This document shows positions 2,913-59,400 of a DNA stretch of 64,000 nucleotides, in pieces; the first letter of the stretch is position 1; each line of letters starts with the position of its first letter. The stretch is from Dastarcus helophoroides. Its lineage: Eukaryota; Arthropoda; Insecta; Coleoptera; Bothrideridae. Below the pieces are notes generated by a model. It made no database searches and was not told the DNA's origin. It saw nothing but the letters and a program-made list of their open reading frames with translations. The stretch lies in assembly GCA_028583605.1 (NCBI GenBank), contig CM053326.1, positions 30,425,431 to 30,489,430 on the forward strand, written 5' to 3'. A program made the position numbers and the translations under genes.

Positions 2913-3028
2913 CATCTTCATAATACGACATTGTTGGCGATGGCCATAGTTTCTCTATGGACCAATAGGTGGTAGTACTAAGAGTCACACGCTTGACGTC
3001 TGTGAATTCTTTAGTACTTACTTGTCGG

Positions 3029-3126
3029 AACATTTGTTAGCATTCGAGTTGGATATACCAAATTGACGAGAGCTAACAAGATCGAAACCGGTCTTTGGTT
3101 TCCAAACTTCGAATCTAATGAATGTT
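3029..3126 (+). ncRNA. Hammerhead ribozyme, copy 1 (degraded core)
   Basis: The order is stem I 5' strand ending ACCAAA (3057-3062), core TTGACGA (3063-3069), stem II GAGCT/AGATC around AACA, GAAA (3084-3087), a tiny stem III in ACCGGT (3087-3092), cleavage triplet GTC (3091-3093), then TTTGGT (3094-3099), which pairs back to ACCAAA. Stem I continues outward through ATTCGA/TCGAAT and AACATTTGTTAG/CTAATGAATGTT. GTC is the classic hammerhead triplet. Two defects stand out: the invariant first core C is T (3063), and stem II has a G-A mismatch, so this copy is probably weak or dead. Confidence 0.78.
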
Positions 3127-3405
3127 CAAACCTATTGGTCTGTGCATTATAGAATCCTTGTCTTCTGGGCACTCTCCTAGAGAGCAACCGCTTCGCTAGG
3201 TGGCAGTGTTTCAACTGTTGGTAGTTCAGCTACCTATGATTCACTATACACGCCTGGAGGGCTGCATGAATTTGTAGTCTAGGTTGCATTCTTCTTGCAT
3301 ACGACATTGTTGGCGATGGCCATAGTTTCTCTATGGACCAATAGGTGGTAGTACTAAAGAGTCACTCGCTTGACGCCTGTGATTGTTTTAGTACTTACTT
3401 GTCGG

Positions 3406-3503
3406 AACATTTATTAGCATTCGAGTTGGATATACCAAACTGACGAGATCTAACAAGATCGAAACCGGTATTTGGTTTCCAAACTTCGAATCTAATAAAT
3501 GTT
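3406..3503 (+). ncRNA. Hammerhead ribozyme, copy 2 (intact core)
   Basis: All conserved core positions are present: CTGACGA (3440-3446), stem II GATCT/AGATC (3447-3451 with 3456-3460) with loop AACA, GAAA (3461-3464) and triplet GTA (3468-3470), with cleavage predicted after 3470. Stem I pairs ACCAAA (3434-3439) with TTTGGT (3471-3476). After a small internal loop it continues as TTGGA/TCCAA, ATTCGA/TCGAAT and a perfect 12-bp AACATTTATTAG/CTAATAAATGTT. Stem III is only A-C/G-U within the self-complementary ACCGGT, a geometry known from newt satellite hammerheads that work best as dimers. A covariance-model match would settle the call. Confidence 0.85.
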
Positions 3504-3544
3504 CAAACCTATTGGTCTGTGCATTATAGAATCCTTGTCTTCTG

Positions 3545-3614
3545 GGAACTCTCCTAGAGAGCAACCGCTTCGCTAGGTAGGAACTCTCCTAGAGAGAAAC
3601 CGCTTCGCTAGGTG
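3545..3614 (+). repeat. 35-bp tandem duplication inside unit 2
   Basis: GGAACTCTCCTAGAGAG plus the following CTTCGCTAGGT segment occurs twice with a 35-bp period (3545 and 3580). Unit 1 has it once. It explains why unit 2 is longer. The copies differ at two positions. Confidence 0.9.
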
Positions 3615-3722
3615 GCAGTGTTTCAACTGTTGGTAGTTCAGCTACCTATGATTCACTATATACGCCTGAAGGGCTGCTTGATTTTGTAGTTTAGGTTGCA
3701 TTCTACTTGCATCTTCATAATA

Positions 3723-4500
3723 AGTTAAAACTTTTAATAAAAAGTTAAGATATTTAAAATTGTGCATATTTTGCAAATTTCGAAGTTTAAAAAAGTTTTT
3801 AAAACCAAAGATTACTTTCGAAGATTAAAATTACGCCTCAAATTTTGAGAAAAAATTACAACTTTCGAGAAAAACCCAAAATTTATAAAAATAAAATTGA
3901 AAATTTTGTACAATACAAAATTTTAGGAAAACTTTCGAGATTTTGCGAAAAATCTGAAGTTACAAAAATATGCAGTTTTCACGTAAAGCACAGCACAGCT
4001 ATTCACTTTTTTTACTTAAAAATTGACGACTTCTAGAAAATTTGTGATTTGGAAATTCGAGTCAAAATTTTGAGAACTCTGTTTTGGTTTTGATTTGGAA
4101 AGTTTTGTTTTTGTCTCAAAAATTGTTTTATTTCTAAAAATGATCATCTTTTTTCTAAAAATTTGGACTTTTTTTCATTATTTTTAAATTAAAATACGAA
4201 ATATAAAAATTAAAAGTTCAAAAAATTTAGAAAAAAAAGTTGTCCTAAAGGAACTGAAAATTTGAGGTTTAAACTAGAAATTTTACCAAAGATAAGAATT
4301 TTCTTTTTAACCGAAAATTTGAAAGAACAAATACTAAATAAATAATAAATATTTGTGAACTGAAAATTGAAATTTTAACAAATGTAGTTAAAGTTTTCAA
4401 AGTTAATACTCGTAAAATTTTTCTTAAAATTTTCATTTTTCGTTCAAAATTTAGCCTTTTTTATAGATTGCAAAATTAAAATAGCTAAACAGTGGATTTT
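3723..4500. repeat. Minisatellite, right part of the hAT element
   Basis: The same degenerate minisatellite as on the left of the ribozyme dimer, mostly A-rich to about 4060 and then T-rich patches near 4080-4170 and 4390-4470. No gene seen. Confidence 0.6.
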
Positions 4501-4637
4501 CAAAAAAGTGTTTAGTATACCTGCGGCATACAAATTTGGCAACAATTTGTTAAATATGCACTGCTGCCATCGCGTGACTATTTACGAAATTGTGTTGTCA
4601 ATTCTATGCAACAGATGAAGCTAATTCTGTGGCGATG

Positions 4638-4764
4638 TCATTCATCGATTTTTCAAACATCGTTAATAAACTAAACGATGTATCAATATTTTTCATGCGT
4701 TACCATCGATGTTGAAACATCAGTGTTTATAGGCGATACATCGATGGTTTGACAACATCGAACT
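4638..4764. repeat. Right subterminal CATCGATG palindromes
   Basis: ATCGATTTTTCAAACATCG, CCATCGATGTTGAAACATC and GATACATCGATGG mirror the left subterminal repeats and lie just inside the right terminus of the hAT element. Confidence 0.6.
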
Positions 4765-4780
4765 ATCGTTTGCATCCCTA

Positions 4781-7700
4781 CAAAGAAATTAATCACTAAT
4801 TTTAAACTTAGAGAATCCAAAAGACACAATATTGGATTTTGTAGAAATAGAAATGCTTTATGCAGCTGTTGATATCAACTTTTTTTTTCAGACATTTTAC
4901 AATTATAGTAAATATTTTCAAAAAAGATCAGAATCACTAGAAAAAAATCGGTGTATACGCTAAATGGCAAATCGAGATATTGAAAAACTAGAGATTTCTA
5001 GTCTCGAAAATGTTATTAAAACCAAAAAGTCCACACCGTTATCGCTGGTTTAATGTTTTAAATTTAAAATTCGGCTTTTTTCGAAATTTCAACTTTTATC
5101 TCGAAATTTCGACATTAACTCCAGACAAGAAAAAGTCGAAAACTCGACTATCTATTTCTCTCGAAATTTCTAGCCTTCAACCAAAATTTTGGTTTTTGAG
5201 TTTATCCTGATAATTTCCCAGAATTTCTGTTCTAAAATTTGACTTAAAATTTTGAATATCGCCTTTAAACCTAAATCTTTGTAAAATAAGTCAAAAGTTA
5301 GAGTTAAAACTGGAAATAGAGTAAACTGTTCTTTGTTAAAATATCGCATTTTTGGTCGACATTTTTGATTCAAACTCAAAAGATTATTTTTCGTTTTTTT
5401 TAATAACAAGGTCGAGATCTATATCAACATTTTTCTGAAAAAATTGAAATTTGGATTCTAAATTTTAGATGTCTACAAATTTTTCGAAAACAGTAAGTAA
5501 AGATAAAAATATTTTTCTTCTAAATTTGGGATTTAATGTCAACACTTTGACTTTAATCTAGAAATGTTGAATTTTATGTCAACATTTTGATTTCACTCTT
5601 GATGTGTCAATTTTAAATTCAGCATATCCAATTTTTGTACAAAATTTTGATTTAAAAGTAAAAAATATTGTTTGATGTTAAACACAAAAAATTGGAAAAG
5701 ATCGAAATTTCTAAAAAATATTAATTCCAGCTTAAACTTAAAAATTTTGCAAATAAGTTGAGATTTTGAGCAAAAAGTGAAAATTTATATCAACTGAATT
5801 TTCTAATCTAAAATAGGGAGTTTCAAAAAAGTCAAAGTGGTGAAAAAAAAACATGAAAACTCAAGAAGAAGCGTAAACATTACTAAACCAAATCACCTAT
5901 AGAAAAATGAGCTACTTTTCGAATTATCGAGTTTCAAAATTCAGTTTAAATCTAGTTGTAGCAAAAGTGCAGAATTCGAAATTTGTAGGTAAATTTCGAA
6001 GTTTTATACACAATTTCAAAAGTAAGATTTAAATTTTTAAAAGGGTCGAAATTTAAGTCGAAACTTCCAAAAAAGACAAAATAAAAACAAATAAATGCTT
6101 AACACTTTAACATTTTCAGAAAAAGTAGATCTTTTAAAAATATTAAAATTAAAAATGAAAAAGCATGTCACGTAAAAAAACGAAATTTTGAAAAAGAGCT
6201 GTGGAATTTTTCAGTAATGAAAAGTTTGAATCAAGTTTTAGGAGAGTTGAAATTTTCAAAATTACGTAACACTGTAATAAAGTTAGAAATCTGAAAGGGT
6301 GGAAATTTTGAAACATCTAAATTTTCAAAAAATAAAAATTAAAAAGCCAAAACCTCATTTTTTTCAATTTTTCAAAAGGAATAAATTTCATTAAAAACAT
6401 CGAAAATTTTGGGATTTCCAAAAAATTGAAAATATTTAGAAAAGGCCAAAGAATTAGAAATTTCCAGAAATAAGACGAAATTTTGAAATTAAAATCAAAA
6501 TCAAGTCATGAGAAAGTCAAAATTTTGAAAAAAGTCAACTTGTGAAGTAATCTAATTCTAGTAGACTAGTTTGAAACTAGTCAACCTTTTATAAGAGGCG
6601 ACATTTTCAAAATTACCATACGTAAAATTTTGAAAAAAGTTTAAACTTTGCCAAAAATAGTAATTCTGAATCAACTAAATTAAAAGAAGAACAAAATTTA
6701 AAAAGCCGAAAAGTCAAATTTTTTTAGTGTTTCAGAAAAGTCAAATTTCTTTTAAAAAGTAGAAAATTATGGAATTTCAGAAAGATTTGAAATATTCGAA
6801 AAAGTTAAAATAATAAACGTTTGAGAAATAGGCGAAATTTTGAAAATAAAGTCAGAATAAGTTAAAACTTGTTAAAAAGTCAAAGCTTTAAAAAAGGTCG
6901 AATTGAAATAAGACAAAATTTCCAATTACGTTGTCAAAATGTCAAAATATCCAAAATGTCAAAAAGTCAAAATTTCCAAAATGTCAAAAATTTAAGGAAA
7001 TTTTGAAATTTTAAAAAAGTAGTGATTTTCAAAGTCAAAATTTTGAGTCAAAGTCAAATTTCTGAACAAGGTAGAAATTTTCAAATAGCCGAAATTTTCC
7101 AAAAATTCGAAATTTTTAAATCTATTTTTTTCAGATATTTATAAACTTTAAAAAAAAATCAAATTTCTTTTAAAAAGTCGAAAATTATGGGATTTCAGAA
7201 AGATTTAAAATATTCGAAGGAGTTAAAAAAACAACAAACGTTTGAGAAATAGGTGAAATTTTGAAAATAAAGTCAAAATATTTGGAGTAAGTAAAAACTT
7301 GTAAAAAAGTCCAATCTTTAAAAAAACCCGAATTGAAAAAAAGTCAAAATTTCCAATTACATTGTCAAAAAGTCAAAATTTCCAAAATTTTAAAAAAAAT
7401 TAAGGAAATATTAAAATTTTGAGAAATTCGTAATTTTCGAATTCAAAATTTTGAGAAAAGTCGAAATTCTGTAAAAAAGTAGACATTTTCAAATAGTCAA
7501 AATTTTCCAAAAATCCGAAATTTTTAAATCTATTTTTTTCAAATATTCATAATTTTCAAACAAGTAGAATTTGCCAAAAAATATTTAAATAGGTTTGAAA
7601 TTTGCAAAACGTTCAAAAAAACGTTATCTTAAAAGCGTCGAAACTTTCAAAAAGTCAGTATATAGAAGAGTCGCAATTCTGAAATGAAAAAATTGGAAGT

Positions 7701-8066
7701 TGTGAAATTGTCGAAATTTTCCAAAAATTGTACATTTATCAACCAAGTTTTTTTCAACAGTTTTATTTTTTTAATATTTTTTTTAATCCGAAATATTTTC
7801 AAGGTTTTAGAAGAGTTGCAATTTTCAAAATAAAGTATAATTTTGAGAAAGTTAAACCTTTGGAAAAGTATAAATTTTGAAACGTCAAAATTTTCGAAAA
7901 AGCCGAAATTTAAACATCCAAAAAGATAAAATTTGTTTAAAATATTTCACAAAATGTCAAATTTCCTAAAAAAGTTGAAGATTTTTGAACTTCAAAATGA
8001 GTCAAACTATTTAAGATAAGTAAAAATAATCAAAATTTTGAGGAATAAACGAAATATCGAAAATAC
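4781..8066. repeat. Degenerate minisatellite block
   Basis: After about 200 bp of plain AT-rich sequence, the minisatellite resumes: T-rich to about 5230, then increasingly A-rich with units such as AAAGTCAAAATTTCCAAAAT. Two partly homologous stretches (about 6720-7130 and 7130-7540) share GTCGAAAATTATGG and nearby motifs, indicating local duplication. No gene seen. Confidence 0.7.
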
Positions 8067-8402
8067 TGTAACGAAATGTAAATTGTAGAATTTAGTGCAT
8101 AAGAAAAGTTTCTAGAAAGATCTGATAAGGGGAAAGCGGCCGCGATAACGAAGCAAAAGGCAGATAAGCGTTCCCGAAATTTCGGAAAACGATAAGCCTT
8201 ATCTGCCGGATTGTTCTAGAACCTGGAGGCCAAAACTATATAAAGCGGCCAGCTCTCCCTCGAGTAAGTCAGTAATTAGTGAGTTAGTAGTTAGAAGTAC
8301 ATAAGTCAGTTATTGTGCAGTTGTAGTGATCCGAGTTTAGTTTGGTAATAAAGTGGGTATTATGCAATGTGTTAATCAATTCGAACCAATAAGCCTGCAA
8401 CA
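8067..8402 (+). mobile_element. Solo LTR, family 1, forward
   Basis: The copy runs from TGTAAC to GCAACA and shares blocks along its length with the reverse copy at 14570-14944, such as a GATAAGCCTTATCTGCC block, a TATA region, a CTCGAG-TCAGT region and AATAAAGTGGG. It has LTR anatomy: TATATAA (8237-8243), an arthropod TCAGT initiator at 8269-8273 and AATAAA (8347-8352). No internal retroelement or second LTR in the same direction is present, so it is a solo LTR. The flanks show no clear duplication. The superfamily is probably Ty3/gypsy, judged from the 4-bp duplication of the sister copy. Confidence 0.75.
8237..8273 (+). promoter_or_regulatory. LTR core promoter: TATA box and TCAGT initiator
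   Basis: TATATAA at 8237 is followed about 32 bp later by TCAGT, the usual arthropod core-promoter spacing. It could still drive chance transcription from this solo LTR. Confidence 0.55.
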
Positions 8403-10020
8403 GTCAAAATATTTGAAAAAAATTAAATCTGTAAAAAAAAATCGAATTGAAAAACAAGCATAATTTTCAATGAAAGACCCACTGACAAAAATTCGAAATT
8501 CACAAAAATGTCAAAACTCTTATAGAGTCGAAATTTTTAAGAAAAAGACCTTAATTTTCAGTCAAAATTTTAAAAATAGCCGAAATTTGGAAAAGGTTGA
8601 AATTTTGAAATGTTGAAATTTACCAAATATTCGAAATATTAAAATCGGAATTTTCAAAATGAATATTTAAAAAGTCTCATATTTTCAAAACGTTAAAAAT
8701 GCAGTAATCTCAAAAGATTAGAAATTTTCAAAAAGTCATGATCTGCGCCGTCACAATTTTAAAAAAGTCGAAATTCTAAAAAAAGGGTATTATAAATTTT
8801 GAACTAGCTAAAATTTTCCAAAAGTTGGAAGTTTATCAACCAAGTTTTTTCAAACATTTATTAATTTTTGAATATTATTTTTAAAAAAGCCGAAATTTTT
8901 TCCAAGTTTTTGAAGAGTCGCAATTTCCAAAATTAAATGTAGGTATAATTTTTAGAAAATTAGAACTTTGAAAAAGTACAAATTTTGAAACATCAAGATT
9001 TTTGAAAAAACCGACATTTAAAAATCCAAAAAAGTTAAAATTTTCGGTAAATATTTCTCAAATTTCTCAAATTTCTTAAAAAAGTAGAAGAATTTTGAAT
9101 TTTAGAATGAGTCTCAAGAAAAGTGGATACAATCGAAATTTTAAGAAATTAACGAAATATCGAAAATTAGGTCATAATGTTTGGAAAAAGTGAAAACAGT
9201 AAAAAAAATTCGAATTAAAAAAAAACTTAATTTTCAATGAAGGACAAATTCTCAAAATTCACAAAAATGTCAAAACTGTTAGAAAAAGTAAAAATTTTGA
9301 AAAAAAAGTTATAATTTTCAGCCTAAATGTTAAAAATAGCCAACATTTTGAAAAAGGCAGAAATTTTTAGATGGTCAAAATTTACCAAAAATTCGAAATT
9401 TTTAGGTAAAGTTGAAATTTTCAAAAAAAGTCGAAATTTTCAAGAAATCGGAATTTTCAAAGACTAAATATTAAAAAAGTCTTAAAACTTTTAAAACTTT
9501 AAAAATGCAGTAATCTTAAAAGCTTAGAAATTTTCTAAAAGTCGTGATCTGCAAAGCGAAAATTTTAAAAAGAGTCGATATTCTAAATAGGAAATATTAT
9601 AAATTTTGAACTAGTCAAAATTTTCCATAAATTCTAAACTTTTTAAGCAAATTTTTTTAAAAGTTTATATTTTTCGAACAAATTTCTTGAGAAAAATCCA
9701 AATTTAGAAATAAACGGAATTTTCATCCAAATATTTACAAAATTTCGAAATTTTCAAAACGTTAAAACATTCGTAATCCTAAAAGTGTTGCAATTCTCAA
9801 TAATTCTTTCGGAAGATTTGAAAGGAGAGAGTGGAAAAGTCAAAATGTCAAAAAATATCTAACCTTTCAAGTTAACATTTTAGAAAATGTCGAAATTTTG
9901 AAAAAAAAGAATATTTTTGAAGGTATTCCAAAAAAGAAGAATTTTTTCAGTGGAAATTATCAAAAGAGCCTAATTTCTGAAAAAAGTCAAAATTTTACAA
10001 TAGTTTAAATTATCGAATTG
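8403..10020. repeat. Degenerate minisatellite block, A-rich
   Basis: Continues the block interrupted by the solo LTR, almost wholly A-rich on the + strand. Segments near 8780-9110 and 7680-8030 resemble each other (both contain AACCAAGTTTTTTTCAA-like motifs and the phrase that follows), a sign of segmental duplication. No gene seen. Confidence 0.65.
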
Positions 10021-12294: not shown

Positions 12295-12594
12295 GTAAGT
12301 TTTTTATCAAAATTTTGATTGCATATATATCGTTACGTATTATGTTTGCATTGTTATGATATTTTTTCCCAAATGCTTTGGTCTTTCAAGTTTCTAGTGT
12401 TGTGTTATTTTTTTTTATTGACATCTTATTTTGGAACTAAAAATTATTATTCTAACCTACTCACGATTTTTTACACCTAGGCGAGTTGTGACAGCATGTC
12501 ACAACTCCCCTACTATTCTTAGTAATTGTAGCAAAGGTATGTTATTTGCTCTGTGGTGTAATATTGCGTAGTAAATTATTATTTTTCGTTTTAG
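12295..12594 (+). other. Candidate 5' leader intron of the transposase
   Basis: A GTAAGT donor (12295-12300) and a TTTTCGTTTTAG acceptor (ending 12594) enclose 300 bp just before the ATG at 12596. The intron holds an inverted pair of binding-site motifs, GAGTTGTGACA and TGTCACAACTC, at 12483-12508. Splicing is inferred from these signals only. Confidence 0.4.
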
Positions 12595-12595
12595 A

Positions 12596-14446
12596 ATGCC
12601 AAATAAATACAAACGAAAGACTGATAGGGGTATGAGTAGTGCCGAAATTTATGAATTGGCCTTTGAAGAAGTCACATTGAGAGGTAAAAGTCTTAGAGAT
12701 GCCGCATCTTCTTACAATCTCAACTATATGTCATTGCAAAGATATATTAAGAAGAAAAAATCATATCAAGCTAATTTAACAAGCGAAGCTCCATCTGCAG
12801 GTTATATTAGCTCGACGGTTTTTACAAAAGAAGAAGAAAATATTCTATGTCAGTATTTATTGACATGTGCAGCGACTAATTATGGGTTTACAACAAAAGA
12901 GACATGAAGTTTAGCGCATTTATTATCGAAAAAATATAACAAAAATTTCCACAGTCATGGGAAGAAAATAAGAAAGCAGGAGAAGTGTGGCTTAAACGAT
13001 TTTTGCAACGACATCTCGATTTATCTTTAAGGTTGCCACAAGCCACAAGCAGAGCCCGCGCCACGAGCTTTAGTAAAACGAATGTGGCTGCTTTTTTTGA
13101 TAATTACATGGGTGTCTTAAGCAAATATAAACTTAACGCAAAAGATATTTGGAATGTCGATGAGACGGCAATAACTACTGTTCAGAAGCCTGATAGAATA
13201 ATAGCACGACGTGGAGAAAAACAGGTCAGTGCAAAGACATCGGCCGAAAGAGGAACCTTAGTCACATTGGCTTTGGCTGGAAACGCTGTAGGTAATTACA
13301 AACCACCTATGTTTATATTTCCTTGAAAAAGTTTTCAAGAACATTTCATTCGTGATAGCCCAGTTGATTCAGTAAAAACAGCTAACGGATCTAGATGGAT
13401 GCAGGAGGATGATTTTCACTTCTTCCTTGAGCATTTCAAAAATCATGTTAGGCCATCAAAAGAGCAAAAAGTTCTGTTGCTCTTGGATAATCATTTATCT
13501 CACATGGCTTTAAAAAATATTGAGTTCTGCAGAGACAACGGCATAATTTTGCTTACCTTCCCTCCACATTGCACCCACAAGCTGCAACCAATAGATCGTG
13601 CTATCTTTGGGCTTCCAAAGAAAGCTATTTATTCAGCTTGTGATAATTGGATGCGCTCAAAAGCTGGGAAGGTTATGAGCATTTATGATATTTCATCTAT
13701 AACTAAATCGGGATTTGACGTAGCGATCACTGCAAAAATTATCAGTGGTGATTTTTCTACAACAGGAATATGGCCTGTTAATACATGTATCTTCGGAGAA
13801 GGTGATTTTCTGCCTAGTCAAGTCACTGATCGTATTTTGCCCAATCAAAAAACGAATCAATTGTCAAGTGTTCCACAAATCCCGGGAAACCCAGAAGGAA
13901 GAACTCCTAATCCCACAAGGACCGTTGCTCAAAGTCTCTCTACAGATCAAGACATGAAATCTTCCAGCAGTTCATGTATTATGAACGTCGAAGAGCCCGT
14001 TGCCTCCACGTCTACAGCCCGTAGTTCTCTTGCAACCACTTCCAACGTGTTTTCACCAGAGTCACTTAGGCCGCTGCCCAAAGGTCCACCAAGAAAAAAG
14101 AACCAACCGAATAGATCAAATCTGCTGTACTGATACACCTACCAAAAATAAAATTGCTGTCAAAGAAGCGAGTAAAAAGATTAAAACTGCAAAAAACGCG
14201 TTTTAAGCAAAAAAAAAGCCCAAAAAATTAAAGAAGATTAATAAAAAGAGTAAAGTTGGTGATGAAGAAGATGAAGCCGAACAAGATACAGAGAATGATT
14301 GTTTTTGTTTGTGTTGCCTTGAGACCTTTTCCAACAGCAAATCCGAAGAAAAGTGGGTTCAGTGCCTTGAATGCAAAGGTTGGGCTCACGAAGCTTGCAC
14401 TGGGGGCGAGCTTCAATACGGCTGCCATAATTGTTTATCAAATTAA
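12596..14446 (+). pseudogene. pogo/Tigger transposase with C-terminal PHD-like finger
   Basis: The ATG at 12596 opens a helix-turn-helix (psq-type) region: SLRDAASSYNLNYMSLQRYI at about residues 35-55. The DDE domain follows: NVDET (first Asp codon 13159), LLLDNHLSH (second Asp 13486) and QPIDRAIFG (third Asp 13594), with 35 residues between the last two. The C-terminus returns to the first frame and encodes a Cys/His finger, C-x-C-x2-C then W-x2-C-x2-C-x2-W-x-H-x2-C and C-x2-C, resembling a PHD finger, before TAA at 14444. The lesions are a TGA at 12905, a 1-base deletion near 12950, a TGA at 13324, a frameshift near 14115 and a TAA at 14204. It is not functional. Tigger-like proteins with such fingers occur in other invertebrates. 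Confidence 0.88.
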
Positions 14447-15517: not shown

Positions 15518-16507
15518 CAGCGTGTCCCAAATTTAAGATATGACGTCTATTTTTTTCTTGACTATTCTTAAAGGGTATATCAAGTTACACATGTGTACCG
15601 AATTTCAATTTTTTATTCCTTGTCATTTAAAAGATATTTACAAATTTAGTAACTAATTCGAAAAATCAAGAAATCTGATTTAATTCAATACAATTTTCAT
15701 AAAGTTTAAAAATCGCGCATTAGAAGATATTCGTTTGATATTTTTTACAAAACTGGATTGACGTCTTATTACAATCTTATGAAAAAAGTTAATAAAAACA
15801 AATAAGAAGAGTAGTATCATATTGATCGAAGAGACTATTAGTTTGTCGCTTAGTGAGAAACCACCATCTATTAAAAAATCGACCAAATTGCCGTACTAAC
15901 TGAAACCCACAAGATTGAAATTTTAATAATGATTCGCTATGGACATGGAACAAGAACACAAAATGAAGTTATTCGTTATTTGGGGAGAAGTATCCTGATG
16001 TATCACCTATATCGCAAAGTACCGTAAGCAAAATTAAAAAACAGTTTAAAAAAAATGGCCATTTAAGAAAAGGAAGTAATTCGCGTTAGAATGCGCTCAA
16101 TGAAGATGTCAAAATTAATGTACTTCTCTCTGTCCAAGAAAATCCTCATGTCCATAGTAGCCAGACAGTTAGGAAACTTAAAATTAGCCAGTCTTCAGTT
16201 GCAAGAATTTTGAAAATGCAAATATTTCATCCTTATAAAATGACAATCCTCCATGAACTCTTAGAAGATGATCCGGATAGAAGACTCCAGTTTTGCGAAC
16301 AAATGATGGATCTAATGGAAAGAAGTGTTCTAAGCATAGGAAATATCCTGCTTTCAGATGAATCAACGTTTATGTTAAATGGTGGGCTAAATCGTCAAAA
16401 TTGTCGTTACTGGGCAGACAACAACCCACACTGGATAAGGAAAGGCCACACTCAACATCCAAAGAAAGTCAATGTTTGGACAGGGATTGTTATTCATCGA
16501 GTTATAG

Positions 16508-17243
16508 CAGGGCTACGAATCGTTATTTTTTTCGTTCCGGTTTTCGGTTTTCGTTTCAGCAAAAAAATTATATCGGTTCAGTTCCGGTTTTCTTTCAGAC
16601 AAAAATAACGGTTTTTCGGTTTTCGATTCAGTTCCGGGTGACCCATTTTTTTGATTTTTTAAAGGTTTTTCGTATTTTAAATTGATTTTCGAACATAATT
16701 TAACAACTGTTATGTCTTTGTTTTTCTTTAATATTACAACATTTAACTGCCCTGATCTTGCCTAAAAAAAGGAAAATATTTGTTATTTTTCAAATTAAAA
16801 AATTTCAAGCTGAAATCCTGAATTTTGAGTTCAAATTTCAAGCAAAACCTGAACTTCACAAAACGCTAAATCTCATTTTCGGGTTTAGAAATTTTAAATT
16901 TTAAATTATTGTTCATTGTAGACTTATTGATCGGAAACATTATCATTATTAATTTCATTTAACATTTCTGCGTAAAATATTTCCAAACTGGGTTGCAGAA
17001 ATGTTAAATTTAAGTTTAAACTCGGAATTTTCATAAAAATCTTAAATTATATACTCAAGAGTTCTGGAATATACGAAATTTGACGATTGAAATCGAAAAT
17101 TTGAGAGACTTTTCTTTCATCATTTTGGTATTTGGCGAAGTTTTGACTTTGATTCGCTTTTTCTAACAGAGCGAATTTTTGCTGTTTTGACCTCCTTTTC
17201 TTAAACTTTGGATTAAAAAGGTCAATTTAAAAAAAATAAATGA

Positions 17244-19915: not shown

Positions 19916-20456
19916 AATTATAGGACCAATTTATTTTCAAGAAAATCTCAATGGGGCAGGATATTTAGGATTCTGGCAAGAAAAGCTGATTCCTGATATA
20001 CCTATTTTATTTCCTGATCCGGTCAAAGCTGATGTCCCGAATAGAAACATCTGGTTTCAACAAGACAGTGCCCCTCCTTATTTTGCCAGACCTGTCCATG
20101 AGTATCTCGATGATGTATTTCCAGGCAGATGGATTGGTAGAAGAGGACCTTTTGAATGGCCATCTAGGTCTCCGGATATAACACCTATGGACTATTTCTC
20201 ATGGGGGTATTTGAAGAGCAAAGTTTTTAAAACCAAACCTGCAAATATTGAAGAGTTGAAAGGACGAGTAAGACAGGAATGTTTAAAACAAGTTTCCGTT
20301 TCATTTAGGGTATTGTTAGTTAGTAAATGGACAACAATTTCAACATTTATTGAAGAAATATTATTGAGTTAAATTAAATTCAATTAAATCAAAAGTTAAT
20401 ATTTGTTAAATATTTTTTAATTGACAAGAAATTAAAAAAAATGAAATTAGCAAATT

Positions 20457-42470: not shown

Positions 42471-43524
42471 CAGGTTATAACAAATTCGCTTCTCACTACA
42501 AGGATCTCGGAAGATAGTAAGAGATACAGAATCGGTTAAATTGGGGCAAAGTTGCAGCAATTTGGCGATCAGAAATACGCCATTGAGAAATCAAAAATAT
42601 ATCTTGCAATTTTTCAGATTTTTGAAAAAAAAATTTGGAAGAGTAACCGAAAACCTAAAAAAGCTTATTAATTGGCGTTTTTTATCTTTTACAAAATGGC
42701 ATGAAGGGTTTTTTTATTAGACGTTTCGTCTTCTCATCATCAAGTACGTTATTTTAAATAGGGACATAGAATTTTTATTGCATCTTTGTATTGCTTTTGA
42801 ATTTCCGAATTTATTGATGTATGTGGCTAAACGTTTCGTAACTTTAAACTATCATCAAGGAAAAATCACTCTTTTCAGATTAACGTTACTCTATTATTTT
42901 TTCATAATAAATAATTATTATTAGCAATGAAATTATAAAAACTTAATTCGTTAGTTAGAACACAAGGTAATAGCACAATAAATAGATTTTAACAAAAAAC
43001 AATAGACATAATCATAAATAACTGACCACCAAAAATAATGATTAAGGACTACGAATAAAGCGACAATGGATATTTAAAATAACAAATAAAAAAGTAACTG
43101 TCACATTTTGCTTGTCATATTTTATTACATTTTTGTTATCTATTATTCAAAAATAAAGAAAAAAGGTGTTTTTTCTTGATGATAGTTTACAGTTACGAAA
43201 CATTTAGTAACATAAAAGTTTGATACATCAGTGAAGTCAAACAGTCAAAAGCTATACAAAGATGCAATAAAAATAACAGGTCCATACTTAAAATAACGTA
43301 CAATAAAAAAGTGTTTTCGATTACTCTTCAAATAAGGCCAAAAAAAAACGAAAATTCAAAATTTTACTTTTTTTTTAAATCTCAGGAACAGCAAGAGATC
43401 TTTTGATTTCTCGACGGCATATACCTGGTCTCTAAGTTGTGCAACTATGCCACAATTTAACCGATGCTGTATCTCTTATCGTTTTTGAGATCCCTGTAGT
43501 GAGAAGCGAATCTGTTGCAACCTG
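42471..43524. mobile_element. 1.05-kb foldback element
   Basis: Ends CAGGTTATAACAAATTCGCT and CAGGTTGCAACAGATTCGCT (inverted), each next to TATATA. The arms run several hundred bp: both carry CTTCTCACTACA, AGAGATACAG.ATCGGTTAAATT and, further in, a CTTGATGATAG...GTTACGAAAC motif (minus strand near 42830-42855, plus strand 43175-43205). The central roughly 300 bp is not paired. TA or TATATA target duplication. No protein. Confidence 0.82.
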
Positions 43525-46653: not shown

Positions 46654-46764
46654 TAAGGTACGGAAATACAGTCACAGAATTTGGCACAGAATGTGACTCT
46701 TATCGTTTGAAGTAGTTCTCTTAGACTACTTTCAATACTTATAATTAGTAAGTATTAATAAATG

Positions 46765-46889
46765 TCCTGGTGCATTCACCGTGAGTGAACGCGCTTGATG
46801 GGGCTAGAATTTTTACGTTTTTTTTTTATTAAAAGAATGTAAAAACCCTAACCCTTTCAAGCGCGTTCATTTATGGTGGATGCGCCGGA
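46765..46889. mobile_element. Small hairpin MITE
   Basis: A 125-bp near-perfect palindrome: TCCTGGTGCATTCACCGTGA at the left and TCCGGCGCATCCACCATAAA (inverted) at the right, both leading into TGAACGCGCTTGA. The centre is an A/T run. Class unknown; the flanks show no clear duplication. Confidence 0.75.
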
Positions 46890-47132
46890 CCAAAGAGATT
46901 TCCTTTTAAGGGACCGTAACCTGTTCCAGCAAAAAACTGGCAGTTTATTTAAATTTTCCATGCATTTTATATTTTATTACACTAGAATTGGCAGTTTTCT
47001 TTAAAAAAACATGTTGATTATAGTTATCTTTGTGGCGCCATTGCCGTCAGGGTTAATGTGCTTGTGAGTTAGCAGTTTTTAATAAAATATGCTTACAATT
47101 ACTTCAACAAAAAATACCTTCAAATTCTGGAT

Positions 47133-53648: not shown

Positions 53649-56420
53649 AACAACAAGGCTAATATTGCCTTACTAATTCATGATTGGAAGCCTGACATCG
53701 TGTTTCTGAGTGAGACACACGTATCATCTGAAATTGAGTTATGCGAACTGAAAATAGATTGGAACAATCTACTAGTAATAACAGCAGAACAGGAAGAGTT
53801 ATAGCTTTAATTAAATATGATATTAGATATAAAGTTAAATCTGTAGAGTGTGTTCATAATTATGTATGGTTGCTGTCTCTAAAGTTGTCTAATATGGTGT
53901 TAAGTACTTGTTGTCTGTACTGTACCATCCACCCCAAAGGGATAATGCTAGATTTGTAAAATTTCTTAATAAATATCTGGATCAGGTAAATGAATTTAAT
54001 GGTGCTAATATAATAGTGGAAGACTTTAATTTTGATTTACTGAAACACACCATTTATCGAAACAGCATAAGCAATGACATACACACTAATGGAATGACCC
54101 AAATAGTGAAAACACCTACCAGAATAGTTTCGAGCAGCCAGACATTGATTGATTATGTAGTAACTAATGACAAACATCTTCAACATAGAGTACATCTAAC
54201 ATCTAAAATTACTGACCATTCCATCGTGTCAATTACTCTAAATCGACAAAAAGAACAAACTACTGATATCATAAAATATCAAAGATCATTTAAAAATTAT
54301 AATCGTGATAAGTTACAACAAGAACTAAAGAACATTAATTGGAAAAATAGTATCTCTGATGTGAGTACATTAGCTAATTCCGTTGTCACAGATATCAGGA
54401 AACATCTTAGACAGTATGTGCCCCAGAGTCAAAATTTTCCAGAAACAAAAATACATAGGATAAAAAATGGAGATTAGAGAATTGATGCAGGAAAAGGATG
54501 TATCATATAAGAGGGCGATTATAGATAAATGCGAAGAAACATAGAATGAATCTAAGGCCAAAAGAAATAACATTGTTAATAAAATAAGAATGAAGAAGGG
54601 AACATATTTCACTGAAACAATAGACTTAAATAAAAATAATATAAAAGAACTATGGAGAAACCTAAATACTCTTGTACCAAGAAAAAACAAACAATGCCGG
54701 ACGTAATTTATTTTGAAACAGAATTGGTCGAGCAAGAAAAAGGACATAGCACACAAATTTAACAGATACTTCGTTGACATCATTGAGAGCATTATCCAAA
54801 ATATACTGCAAACAGCTAATGTCAAATCCAATATTACCAGGACCCACATACCTAACAACGTGTTTTCTAATTTTGAAACAATATCCATGACGAAAATGAA
54901 ATAAATACTAAAAAGTCTAAAAAATATGGGAAGTGGTGAAAGTGGCATATCGAAACAAATTCTTGGTGATGTCTCCTATGCTGCTGGAGATCGTCTATTA
55001 GACATCCTAAACTCAACTGTTACGAGTGGTCTCTTCCCAGATTCGTGGAAACTGTCAACAGTAATTCCTGTTCCCAAGGTGCAAAATACTAAGTGCCACA
55101 GGGAGTTCCGGCCAATCAACACGGTCCCCATATATAAAAAACTATTGAAATTGTGTGCAAAAGAACAGCCTACTTAAGTATTGTGTTAATAATAACATCA
55201 TTGTTCCCAATCAATCAGGTCTTCGCGAAAACCACTCATGTGATTCGGTTGTAGTCGGTATCTGTGATGATTTTATTAGGGCTATAGACTGTAATAATTT
55301 TGTTTTAGCTGCATTTTTAGGTTTCAAAAGAGTCTTTGAAACAGTAGATGGGCAAATATTAATAAAAAATTAGAACATTTAGGAGTAAGGCATAATGTTT
55401 TAAAGTGATTTAAATCTTACCTATGTAATAGGAGTCCAACGTGTAATGTATAAAAATTCTATGACTGAAGCTGTAAATGTACCGCAAGGTACCGGTGTAC
55501 CGCAAGGAACCGTTTTGGGTACCATTATTATTCTTATTGTACATGAATGATATGGTAAAAGTGACTTACAAATGTAAACTTATTTTGTTTGCGGACGACA
55601 CGATGCTCTATATAGAAGGAAAAAACCTGCATCAAATGAAAGCAGATTTGAACAAGGATCTGAACAATTTATTTAATTGGCTCTGTTACAATAAATTAAG
55701 TCTAAGTGTAGGTTAATCTAAATTTTGCTTATTCGGCAAGAGGTCAAGAATAAGTTCTGTAAATATTAGAAATATACAAATTACTGTAAATGGAGAAAAC
55801 ATTTCTTATGATAAAGAAATCAAATATTTGTTATAGATTTCAACTCGAAGTTTTGTGCCCATGCGGATTATGTTATGAGAAAATGCTCTAAAAAAGTTTG
55901 ATTTATAACTAGAATAGGCAGGAAACTGTCAATGCATACAAAGTTATTGCTTTACAAAACTATTGCACTTCCACATCTGCAGTACCATTCAACTTTATTG
56001 CTTAATTTGTCACCATATAAAATAAGCCAGCTGGAAAAAATCCAAAACAGAGTAATGAGACAGATTTTAAATTCTAATCGATATATTCCAATTAAATCGA
56101 TGTTGAGTGTTCCAAATATGTTGTCTGTTATATAGAGAGTTATATTTTAAGTAAATCTATTTATATTTAAAATGAAACAAAAGCTGTTGCCACAATATAT
56201 CTGATAAATTAAAAGTTTTTAATGATGTACATAATTATAATACTAGAAACTGTACAGATTTTATATTATTAGATTGATGTAATACCACAAGATGCTAAAC
56301 TCCGTCCTATACAGAGGTTTCATTGAGTTTAACAATCTGCCTACAAATATTAAAAAATGTGAACATTTGAATCATTTCAGAAAGATTTTGAAGCAAAATT
56401 TTAAGTAAATAGTAGTGTTT
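53649..56420 (+). pseudogene. Endonuclease/reverse transcriptase of the LINE, broken
   Basis: Endonuclease pieces: KPDIVFLSETHVSS (53690 region), then from 53908 LYHPPQRD, VEDFNFDLL (family GDFN), TRIVSSSQTLIDYVV and ITDHSIVSI with the catalytic DH pair. RT pieces from 54926: SGISKQILGD, FPDSWKLSTVIPVPK, FRPINTVPIYKKLLK, QSGLRENHSCDSVV, motif A as FLGFKRVFETVD, where the catalytic Asp is replaced by Gly, VPQGTVLG, motif C LFADDTMLY (55590 region), and a thumb region LYKTIALPHLQYHS (55950 region). Remnants of the C-terminal YNTRN and FNNLP motifs follow near 56230-56350. Many stops and frameshifts; inactive. Confidence 0.82.
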
Positions 56421-58500: not shown

Positions 58501-59400
58501 ACAGCTATCTTTGATAGTTTTGAAGATATTCTAATTTTTCGAAAAAAAATGACAGAAAAGAGGGCTAATTTGACTCCTTATATCATTTTTAATATTTGCA
58601 GAAAAGGAATAAACTTTTGGTTGAAGACATGGAATATTGTGAAGACTATAATGGTGTAATCAGGTTTTACATTTATTATACAGGGTGACAAGAATTTGAT
58701 GATATTTATTGTTTTTGTTTTATTTAAAAAATTCTGGTTTTTTAAATACAAATTATTTGTTTTTTAATTATTTTTGGCTAATTTGACTCTTTGTATCATT
58801 TTTAATATTTGCAGAAAAGGAATAAACTTTGGGTTGAAGTCATGAAATATTATGAAGACTATAATGGTGTAATCAGGTTTTACATTTATTATACAGGGTG
58901 ACAAAAATTTTATGATCTTTATTGTTTTTGTTTTATTCAAAAAATTCAGGTTTTTTAAATACGAATTATATGTTTGTTTAATTATTTTTGGATTCTATAC
59001 ATAAAAAGGAGAAAAAAGTTAACTTACTTATTTTTTAAAATTTTGTACCGTTGCAGAAGGTATTTTACATAAAACTTAAAATAAAAAGAATGAAACATAT
59101 CTTTTTTTCAAGCAGAAAATTAGCTGTAGGCAATGAAAGCTTTAGGAATTAATCATAATTAGCAATAGGAAAATGAAATAAGTGACAAAAAAATTACAAC
59201 AAGAATAACAGTGACGGTCTGTTTCAATAAATTTAAAGGCGAATGTGAAGATTTTGAATTGAGTAAACTTTTTAAGCACATTCGATCGTTCCTAGCAATA
59301 TTCTTGTCATGCAGTAGTCGTTGCAAAAACGTACTCCTTAACAGTTTCCCATAGAAGAATTCTAATGCTTTTTAAATAGAATAGCCTGTATATTTTATGT
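58501..59400. mobile_element. Truncated second copy of the 1.84-kb foldback
   Basis: Matches the arm and core of the element at 51807-53644: AGCTATCTTTGATAGTTTT, GACAGAAAAGAGGG, ATACAGGGTGACA, then core sequence in the inverted sense (CACATTCGATCGTTCCTAGC). It lacks about 260 bp of the outer left arm and the far arm. It contains a 213-bp tandem duplication (GGCTAATTTGACTC at 58563 and 58776). Confidence 0.75.

Follow-up and report, generated by a model that had tools for sequence, protein, structure and literature searches.

A non-coding element of about 780 bases, composed of two units arranged head to tail, occupies positions 2926-3709 of the window, by which we mean the whole 64-kb stretch of DNA analysed here (Table 1). 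The coordinates, the dimer and the flanking repeats given in the preliminary description were all confirmed. For the flanking direct repeats, for which it had allowed 10-13 bp, we found 13 of 13 bases to be identical (2913-2925 and 3710-3722). Its two units of 377-nt type were indeed a tandem pair, with unit 1 at 376 nt, but unit 2 proved longer (408 nt). The exact 13-bp repeat stands at both outer ends of the element and is absent between the units. Among 20,000 random pairs of one left-flank and one right-flank point, 18 gave an exact match of at least 13 bp within ±4 nt, which puts the chance of such a repeat at about 0.001.

In the unit alignment the two copies abut directly, with no internal-region residue between them, and differ by 17 substitutions over 372 aligned positions (8 of 17 being transitions) and by 40 gap columns, 35 of which stem from the extra tandem copy in unit 2. 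These differences reflect either divergence after insertion or a dimer built from two different units. The GC content is 43.1% in unit 1 and 42.4% in unit 2, versus 18.6% in the left flank (1250-2912) and 26.2% in the right flank (3723-5400). No open reading frame longer than 72 aa that overlaps the element was listed. In a BLAST search of the element against the window the units matched each other (E 5e-153) and the best match elsewhere had an E-value of 1.9, so that no second copy was found within the 64 kb.

Table 1. Coordinates of the dimeric element, its flanking repeats and its hammerhead parts, in positions of the window.
Feature	Position	Strand	Remark
Left target duplication copy (CATCTTCATAATA)	2913..2925	.	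Exact match to 3710-3722
Unit 1, 376 nt	2926..3301	+	Direct repeat with unit 2
Unit 1 stem I, 5' half	3028..3062	+	Pairs with 3' half of unit 1, or of unit 2 (paired form)
Unit 1 core UUGACGA (damaged), stem II with G.A mismatch, GAAA, helix III	3063..3092	+	HH9 28.0 bits
Unit 1 palindromic helix III ACCGGU	3087-3092	+	Layout
Unit 1 predicted cleavage after C3093 (GUC)	3093	+	Predicted from layout
Unit 1 stem I, 3' half	3094..3127	+	Fold
Unit 2, 408 nt	3302..3709	+	Direct repeat with unit 1; circular fold z -8.7 (60 shuffles)
Unit 2 stem I, 5' half	3405..3439	+	Fold
Unit 2 core CUGACGA (intact), stem II GAUC/GAUC, loop UAACAA, GAAA, helix III	3440..3469	+	HH9 34.4 bits
Unit 2 palindromic helix III ACCGGU	3464-3469	+	Layout
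Unit 2 predicted cleavage after A3470 (GUA)	3470	+	Predicted from layout
Unit 2 stem I, 3' half	3471..3504	+	Fold
35-bp tandem duplication, unit 2 only	3545..3613	+	Tandem Repeats Finder, 97% matches; absent from unit 1
Right target duplication copy (CATCTTCATAATA)	3710..3722	.	Exact match to 2913-2925

Each unit displays the parts of a type I hammerhead in order. The core, stem II, GAAA, a short helix III and U-H follow one another between the two halves of stem I. A hammerhead fold with the core CTGACGA had been ascribed to both units; we found the layout in both and this core in unit 2, but unit 1 reads UUGACGA and its core is damaged. Stem I of unit 2 forms 31 pairs (3405-3439 with 3471-3504) with small internal loops and two additional pairs farther out, and the 31-33 pairs found in both units agree with the stem I of about 33 nt noted earlier. 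According to PMC11167929, active hammerheads have the first core C paired with a G of the core, and in a Penelope hammerhead a change of either the C or the G kills cutting and the double change partly rescues it. By analogy, the C-to-U change in the unit 1 core would be harmful, and this copy of the element is probably decaying because that core is damaged.

The comparison with Rfam hammerhead models, put forward earlier as a check, gave HH9 matches in both units (unit 2: 3422-3493, 34.4 bits, E 9.8e-7; unit 1: 3045-3116, 28.0 bits, E 1.1e-4; 911-base search), but both scored below the HH9 gathering score of 52, and no Rfam match reached its gathering score. When the full 64 kb was scanned with Rfam, the hammerhead E-values were 6.9e-5 and 0.0078, and the same scan returned, at 46.8 kb, two microRNA matches that are probably spurious (E 1.3e-4 and 3.6e-4). 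Because the latter reach similar E-values, the Rfam score alone is not decisive. The matches at 46755-46896 are to unrelated microRNA precursor families, on both strands and all under gathering scores; this stretch is probably a long inverted repeat that illustrates the false-positive level of the scan.

A hammerhead descriptor, composed after the sequence was seen and tolerating one mismatch in stem II and a helix III without a loop, matched the window at the two units only, both on the + strand; these two matches are not independent, the units being copies. When the element was shuffled 3000 times the descriptor found no match, and among 200 shuffled versions of the window 4 contained one. 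In folding, the segment 3408-3512 was better than 200 of 200 shuffles (z -6.6), and the circular folds had z -6.4 for unit 1 and -8.7 for unit 2 (60 shuffles each). In the circular folds 69% of the bases of unit 1 and 72% of those of unit 2 are paired, and the + strand folds better than the - strand (-125.4 versus -99.4 kcal/mol for unit 1; -142.6 versus -118.6 kcal/mol for unit 2). Nine of the 17 substitutions fall on bases that are paired when unit 2 is folded as a circle; 5 of them preserve the pair and 4 disrupt it, and this pattern is no evidence of compensation.

Several other features of the window were recorded. The stretches 1250-2900 and 4000-9500 have a very high AT content and resemble a degenerate minisatellite whose period is about 18-20 bp (AAATTTTCGAAAA type); within them a 408-bp tandem pair lies at 6736-7552. 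Another head-to-tail dimer, with a 213-bp unit (2.0 copies, 93% matches), occupies 58563-58991; it had no hammerhead descriptor match, and no flanking repeat was seen by eye. About 1 kb at 42500-43480 has ends that are roughly inverted by eye. It contains three motifs of TTGATGA...ACGAAAC type, one on the + strand and two on the -, that recall minimal Penelope-type hammerheads, but the Rfam scan, taken up to E 3, found no hammerhead in this stretch. At 12575-14130 lies a broken DNA transposon, Tigger/pogo-like, in which Pfam identified a DDE_1 domain (PF03184, E 4.9e-14). The nearest named relatives of its transposase piece (13327-14130) are from insects, with 85% over 44% of the query for Melitaea cinxia and 84% over 23% of the query for a Leptinotarsa protein; fish, Hydra, spider and crustacean proteins are also among the matches listed, and we take the host to be probably an insect. 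By eye, two mariner-like transposase halves at 16090-16605 and 19917-20369 stand about 3.3 kb apart, as if interrupted by an insertion, and neither half had a Pfam match at 0.001. A non-LTR retrotransposon endonuclease fragment (PF14529, 24.6 bits versus a cut-off of 27.4) was found at 53893-54474, and inspection by eye picked out reverse-transcriptase-like pieces around 28.0-29.0 kb and 54.9-56.1 kb.

Relatives of the element were sought in several sequence collections, and none was found in those covered. A core pattern of 18 specified bases had 7 exact matches in GTDB contigs, all titled bacterial, which we rejected as relatives, each having just 19-21 bases in common with the element; the same pattern had 0 matches in viral contigs. 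A second pattern gave 0 matches, and the 10 matches of a third were likewise rejected: their alignments were at most 27 bases long, and the 70 bases inspected by eye for each showed no core. Neither a distant blastn search of the element against phages nor a protein database search with the antisense 72-aa ORF of unit 1 gave a match. Viral, phage and prokaryote collections are hardly expected to contain an animal element, and misses in them are weakly informative.

The helix III sequence found in both units (GAAACCGGU) contains the loopless palindrome ACCGGU, which the Rfam HH9 model aligns only with its loop deleted. In a single motif one A-U pair is closable, over a CCGG loop; between two copies six pairs form. 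When the core bases were held open, the fold of two segments chose a double hammerhead unprompted, and the core-open fold of the full dimer paired 3087-3092 with 3464-3469 and formed two stems I that cross, with 31 pairs in each. Opening the core cost 3.6 (unit 2) and 4.7 (unit 1) kcal/mol in the monomer, linear or circular. For two isolated segments the total was 0.3 kcal/mol with unit 2 taken twice and 2.9 kcal/mol with unit 1 and unit 2, and for both cores of the full-length dimer it was 4.9 kcal/mol (unit 2 twice) and 5.6 kcal/mol (native locus). Under an energy model that leaves out tertiary contacts and the non-canonical core, these values suggest a dimer advantage in opening the core that is clear for isolated unit-2 segments and modest per core at full length.

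We give about even chances to the ribozyme working as a paired (dimer) form. Newt and viroid motifs with such a helix III are described as cutting as tandem dimers, with helix III elongated (PMC6155905), and one literature search for a palindromic double hammerhead listed no paper. In the paired form, the core of unit 2 is predicted to serve the site after 3093 and that of unit 1 the site after 3470; because only the unit 2 core is intact, the native dimer would then be cut after 3093. Acting singly, unit 2 is predicted to cut after 3470. Given the unequal quality of the two cores, one mapped cut (3093 or 3470) would separate the paired from the single mode. Absence of cutting at 3470 would be a weak test of the element itself, because its helix III suggests paired action.

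The ends of the insertion were compared with the unit junction. The junction reads TTG-CATA-CGAC, the left end ATA-CGAC and the right end TTG-CAT, and on the circle the start and the end of the insert coincide to within -4 to +2 nt, that is, after two whole laps. With independent start and stop, 7 of 376 positions would fit, or about 2%; this figure was worked out post hoc on a single insertion. The ends of the insert are far from the predicted cleavage site, which is 168 nt into the 376-nt unit, and a ribozyme-cut linear monomer used as template should have placed the ends at the cleavage site, unlike those observed. Unequal exchange between units would not account for the missing fraction, because it shifts the count by whole units only. 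The insert and its ends are compatible with a circular or tandem RNA whose reverse transcription began at an internal point; a Penelope-like enzyme that favours AT-rich targets has been shown to start internally in vitro (PMC11167929). That reverse transcription started and stopped at one fixed point, ending on its return there, would be a simple account but is somewhat doubtful. The two-lap insert with its clean target duplication provides a start-stop point against which other copies can be compared.

The best-supported reading of the sequence is that a metazoan non-LTR retrozyme, a known kind, was inserted here as a dimer, and we consider this very probable. All of the testable retrozyme features were observed, namely tandem units, a type I hammerhead, a target duplication, low GC, no ORF and a self-paired RNA, and the target duplication of 13 bp exceeds the 4 bp typical of LTR retrozymes. 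A metazoan retrozyme had been proposed from the outset; the tandem units, the type I hammerhead, the 13-bp duplication and a GC content under 45% bear this out, and the damaged core of unit 1 does not. The observation was right and the element well recognised, but its standing as a new lineage was set too high. We attach an appreciable, though less than even, probability to a retrozyme of the ordinary invertebrate type, with each hammerhead cutting singly, helix III merely weak and the copies not pairing. Such single action would agree with the efficient monomer cutting described for assayed invertebrate retrozymes (PMC7229834), with the HH9 geometry of the core, stem II and stem I internal loop, and with the modest dimer advantage in full-length RNA; it is harder to reconcile with a helix III that lacks loop bases and aligns to Rfam only by a loop deletion, with the six pairs that the palindrome provides between copies, and with a monomer fold that hides the core by 3.6-4.7 kcal/mol.

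Three further explanations were considered. Penelope-like elements occur in tandem, their hammerheads are of type I with helix III reduced or absent, and they favour AT-rich targets (PMC11167929, PMC6155905, PMC7761336); the locus might be a remnant of one, with two tandem pseudo-LTRs and its reading frame lost. This is improbable: the ORFs that overlap the element do not exceed 72 aa, so there is no reverse transcriptase or GIY-YIG frame, the units abut with no residue of an internal region, and the hammerhead loop sizes equal those of the canonical HH9 model and not of the minimal motif. An exact repeat at the outer ends that is absent between the units argues against the view that structured non-coding DNA was simply duplicated in tandem and resembles a hammerhead by chance, as do the absence of descriptor matches in the 3000 element shuffles, the z scores of both circular folds and a base composition that differs from the flanks. 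Although the Rfam scores lie under the curated cut-off, tandem repeats are many in the window and some descriptor match occurred in 4 of its 200 shuffles, we regard this explanation as very improbable. Lower still do we place a reverse-transcribed DNA copy of an infectious viroid-like circular RNA that is not a resident element. Its size, self-pairing and hammerhead would be similar to those of viroid-like RNAs, and no other copy lies in the window; against this, the - strand has no descriptor match, the + strand folds better, and integrated tandem copies with target duplications are described as the usual state of retrozymes (PMC7229834, PMC4918200).

For a metazoan retrozyme, we infer a life cycle from the dimer, the duplication, the hammerhead layout, the palindrome and the whole laps, all read from the sequence, and from computed folding energies. 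The tandem copy would be transcribed, and neighbouring hammerheads would pair through the ACCGGU palindrome into a shared helix III of six pairs and cut each other's strand, yielding monomers of about 377 nt. A host RNA ligase would circularise the monomer; in the circle, with no helix III and the core inactively paired, the RNA would tend to stay closed. At a nicked target rich in AT, a borrowed reverse transcriptase (Penelope-like or LINE) would then start at an internal point of the RNA, be it circular or tandem, copy two laps and leave the 13-bp target duplication. The combined proposal of a copy-number-gated ribozyme, in which the tandem is cut by a palindromic double hammerhead and the circle hides its core, with whole-lap insertions from one start/stop point, is tentative and more doubtful than likely. 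What merits testing at this locus is its dimer gate and its whole-lap insertion. How circles escape self-cutting and which reverse transcriptase copies them are presented as unsettled in PMC7229834, and the locus makes both questions, circle stability and reverse transcriptase, concrete.

Among known systems, Rfam Hammerhead_HH9 (RF02275) is the best-scoring model of its clan and resembles unit 2 in a four-pair stem II, a six-nt loop and a similar stem I internal loop; it differs in its helix III loop, which is absent here, and in a gathering score of 52 against 34.4 and 28.0 bits. Plant LTR retrozymes are described as hammerhead-bearing, non-autonomous elements with a circular RNA intermediate and a dimeric genomic form (PMC4918200), and the layout here is similar. 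They have type III hammerheads, 4-bp duplications and LTRs with a primer-binding site (PMC4918200), none of which we saw here; the type I order and the 13-bp duplication do not fit a plant-type LTR retrozyme. The hammerheads of Penelope-like elements, as characterised in PMC11167929, are alike in being type I, with a short or missing helix III, tandem copies and AT-rich targets; the present element differs in having no reverse transcriptase frame, canonical HH9 loop sizes and a long stem I.

Satellite retrozymes of newt and axolotl (HHR_Amex1), compared here by description, are alike in a one-pair helix III capped by a palindromic tetraloop. Newt hammerheads reportedly cut as tandem dimers (work ascribed to Forster, 1988, in PMC6155905). 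By the same description, these satellites comprise about 60,000 motifs and are amphibian, whereas here we see an isolated dimer insertion in an insect-like host.

Retrozymes are reported from many phyla, including insects and crustaceans (PMC7229834), as well as from a tick, and those of Nematostella have 15-bp target duplications (PMC4918200). Coral, mussel and axolotl retrozymes have been assayed (PMC7229834). The invertebrate motifs described in that paper have a stable helix III and cut as monomers, whereas helix III here is a loopless palindrome. Metazoan retrozymes are characterised there as tandem units of about 170-400 nt with GC below 50%, a type I hammerhead, duplications longer than 4 bp and no ORF (PMC7229834), and the present element is like them in its tandem units, GC content, type I hammerhead, duplication, lack of an ORF and stable self-paired RNA.
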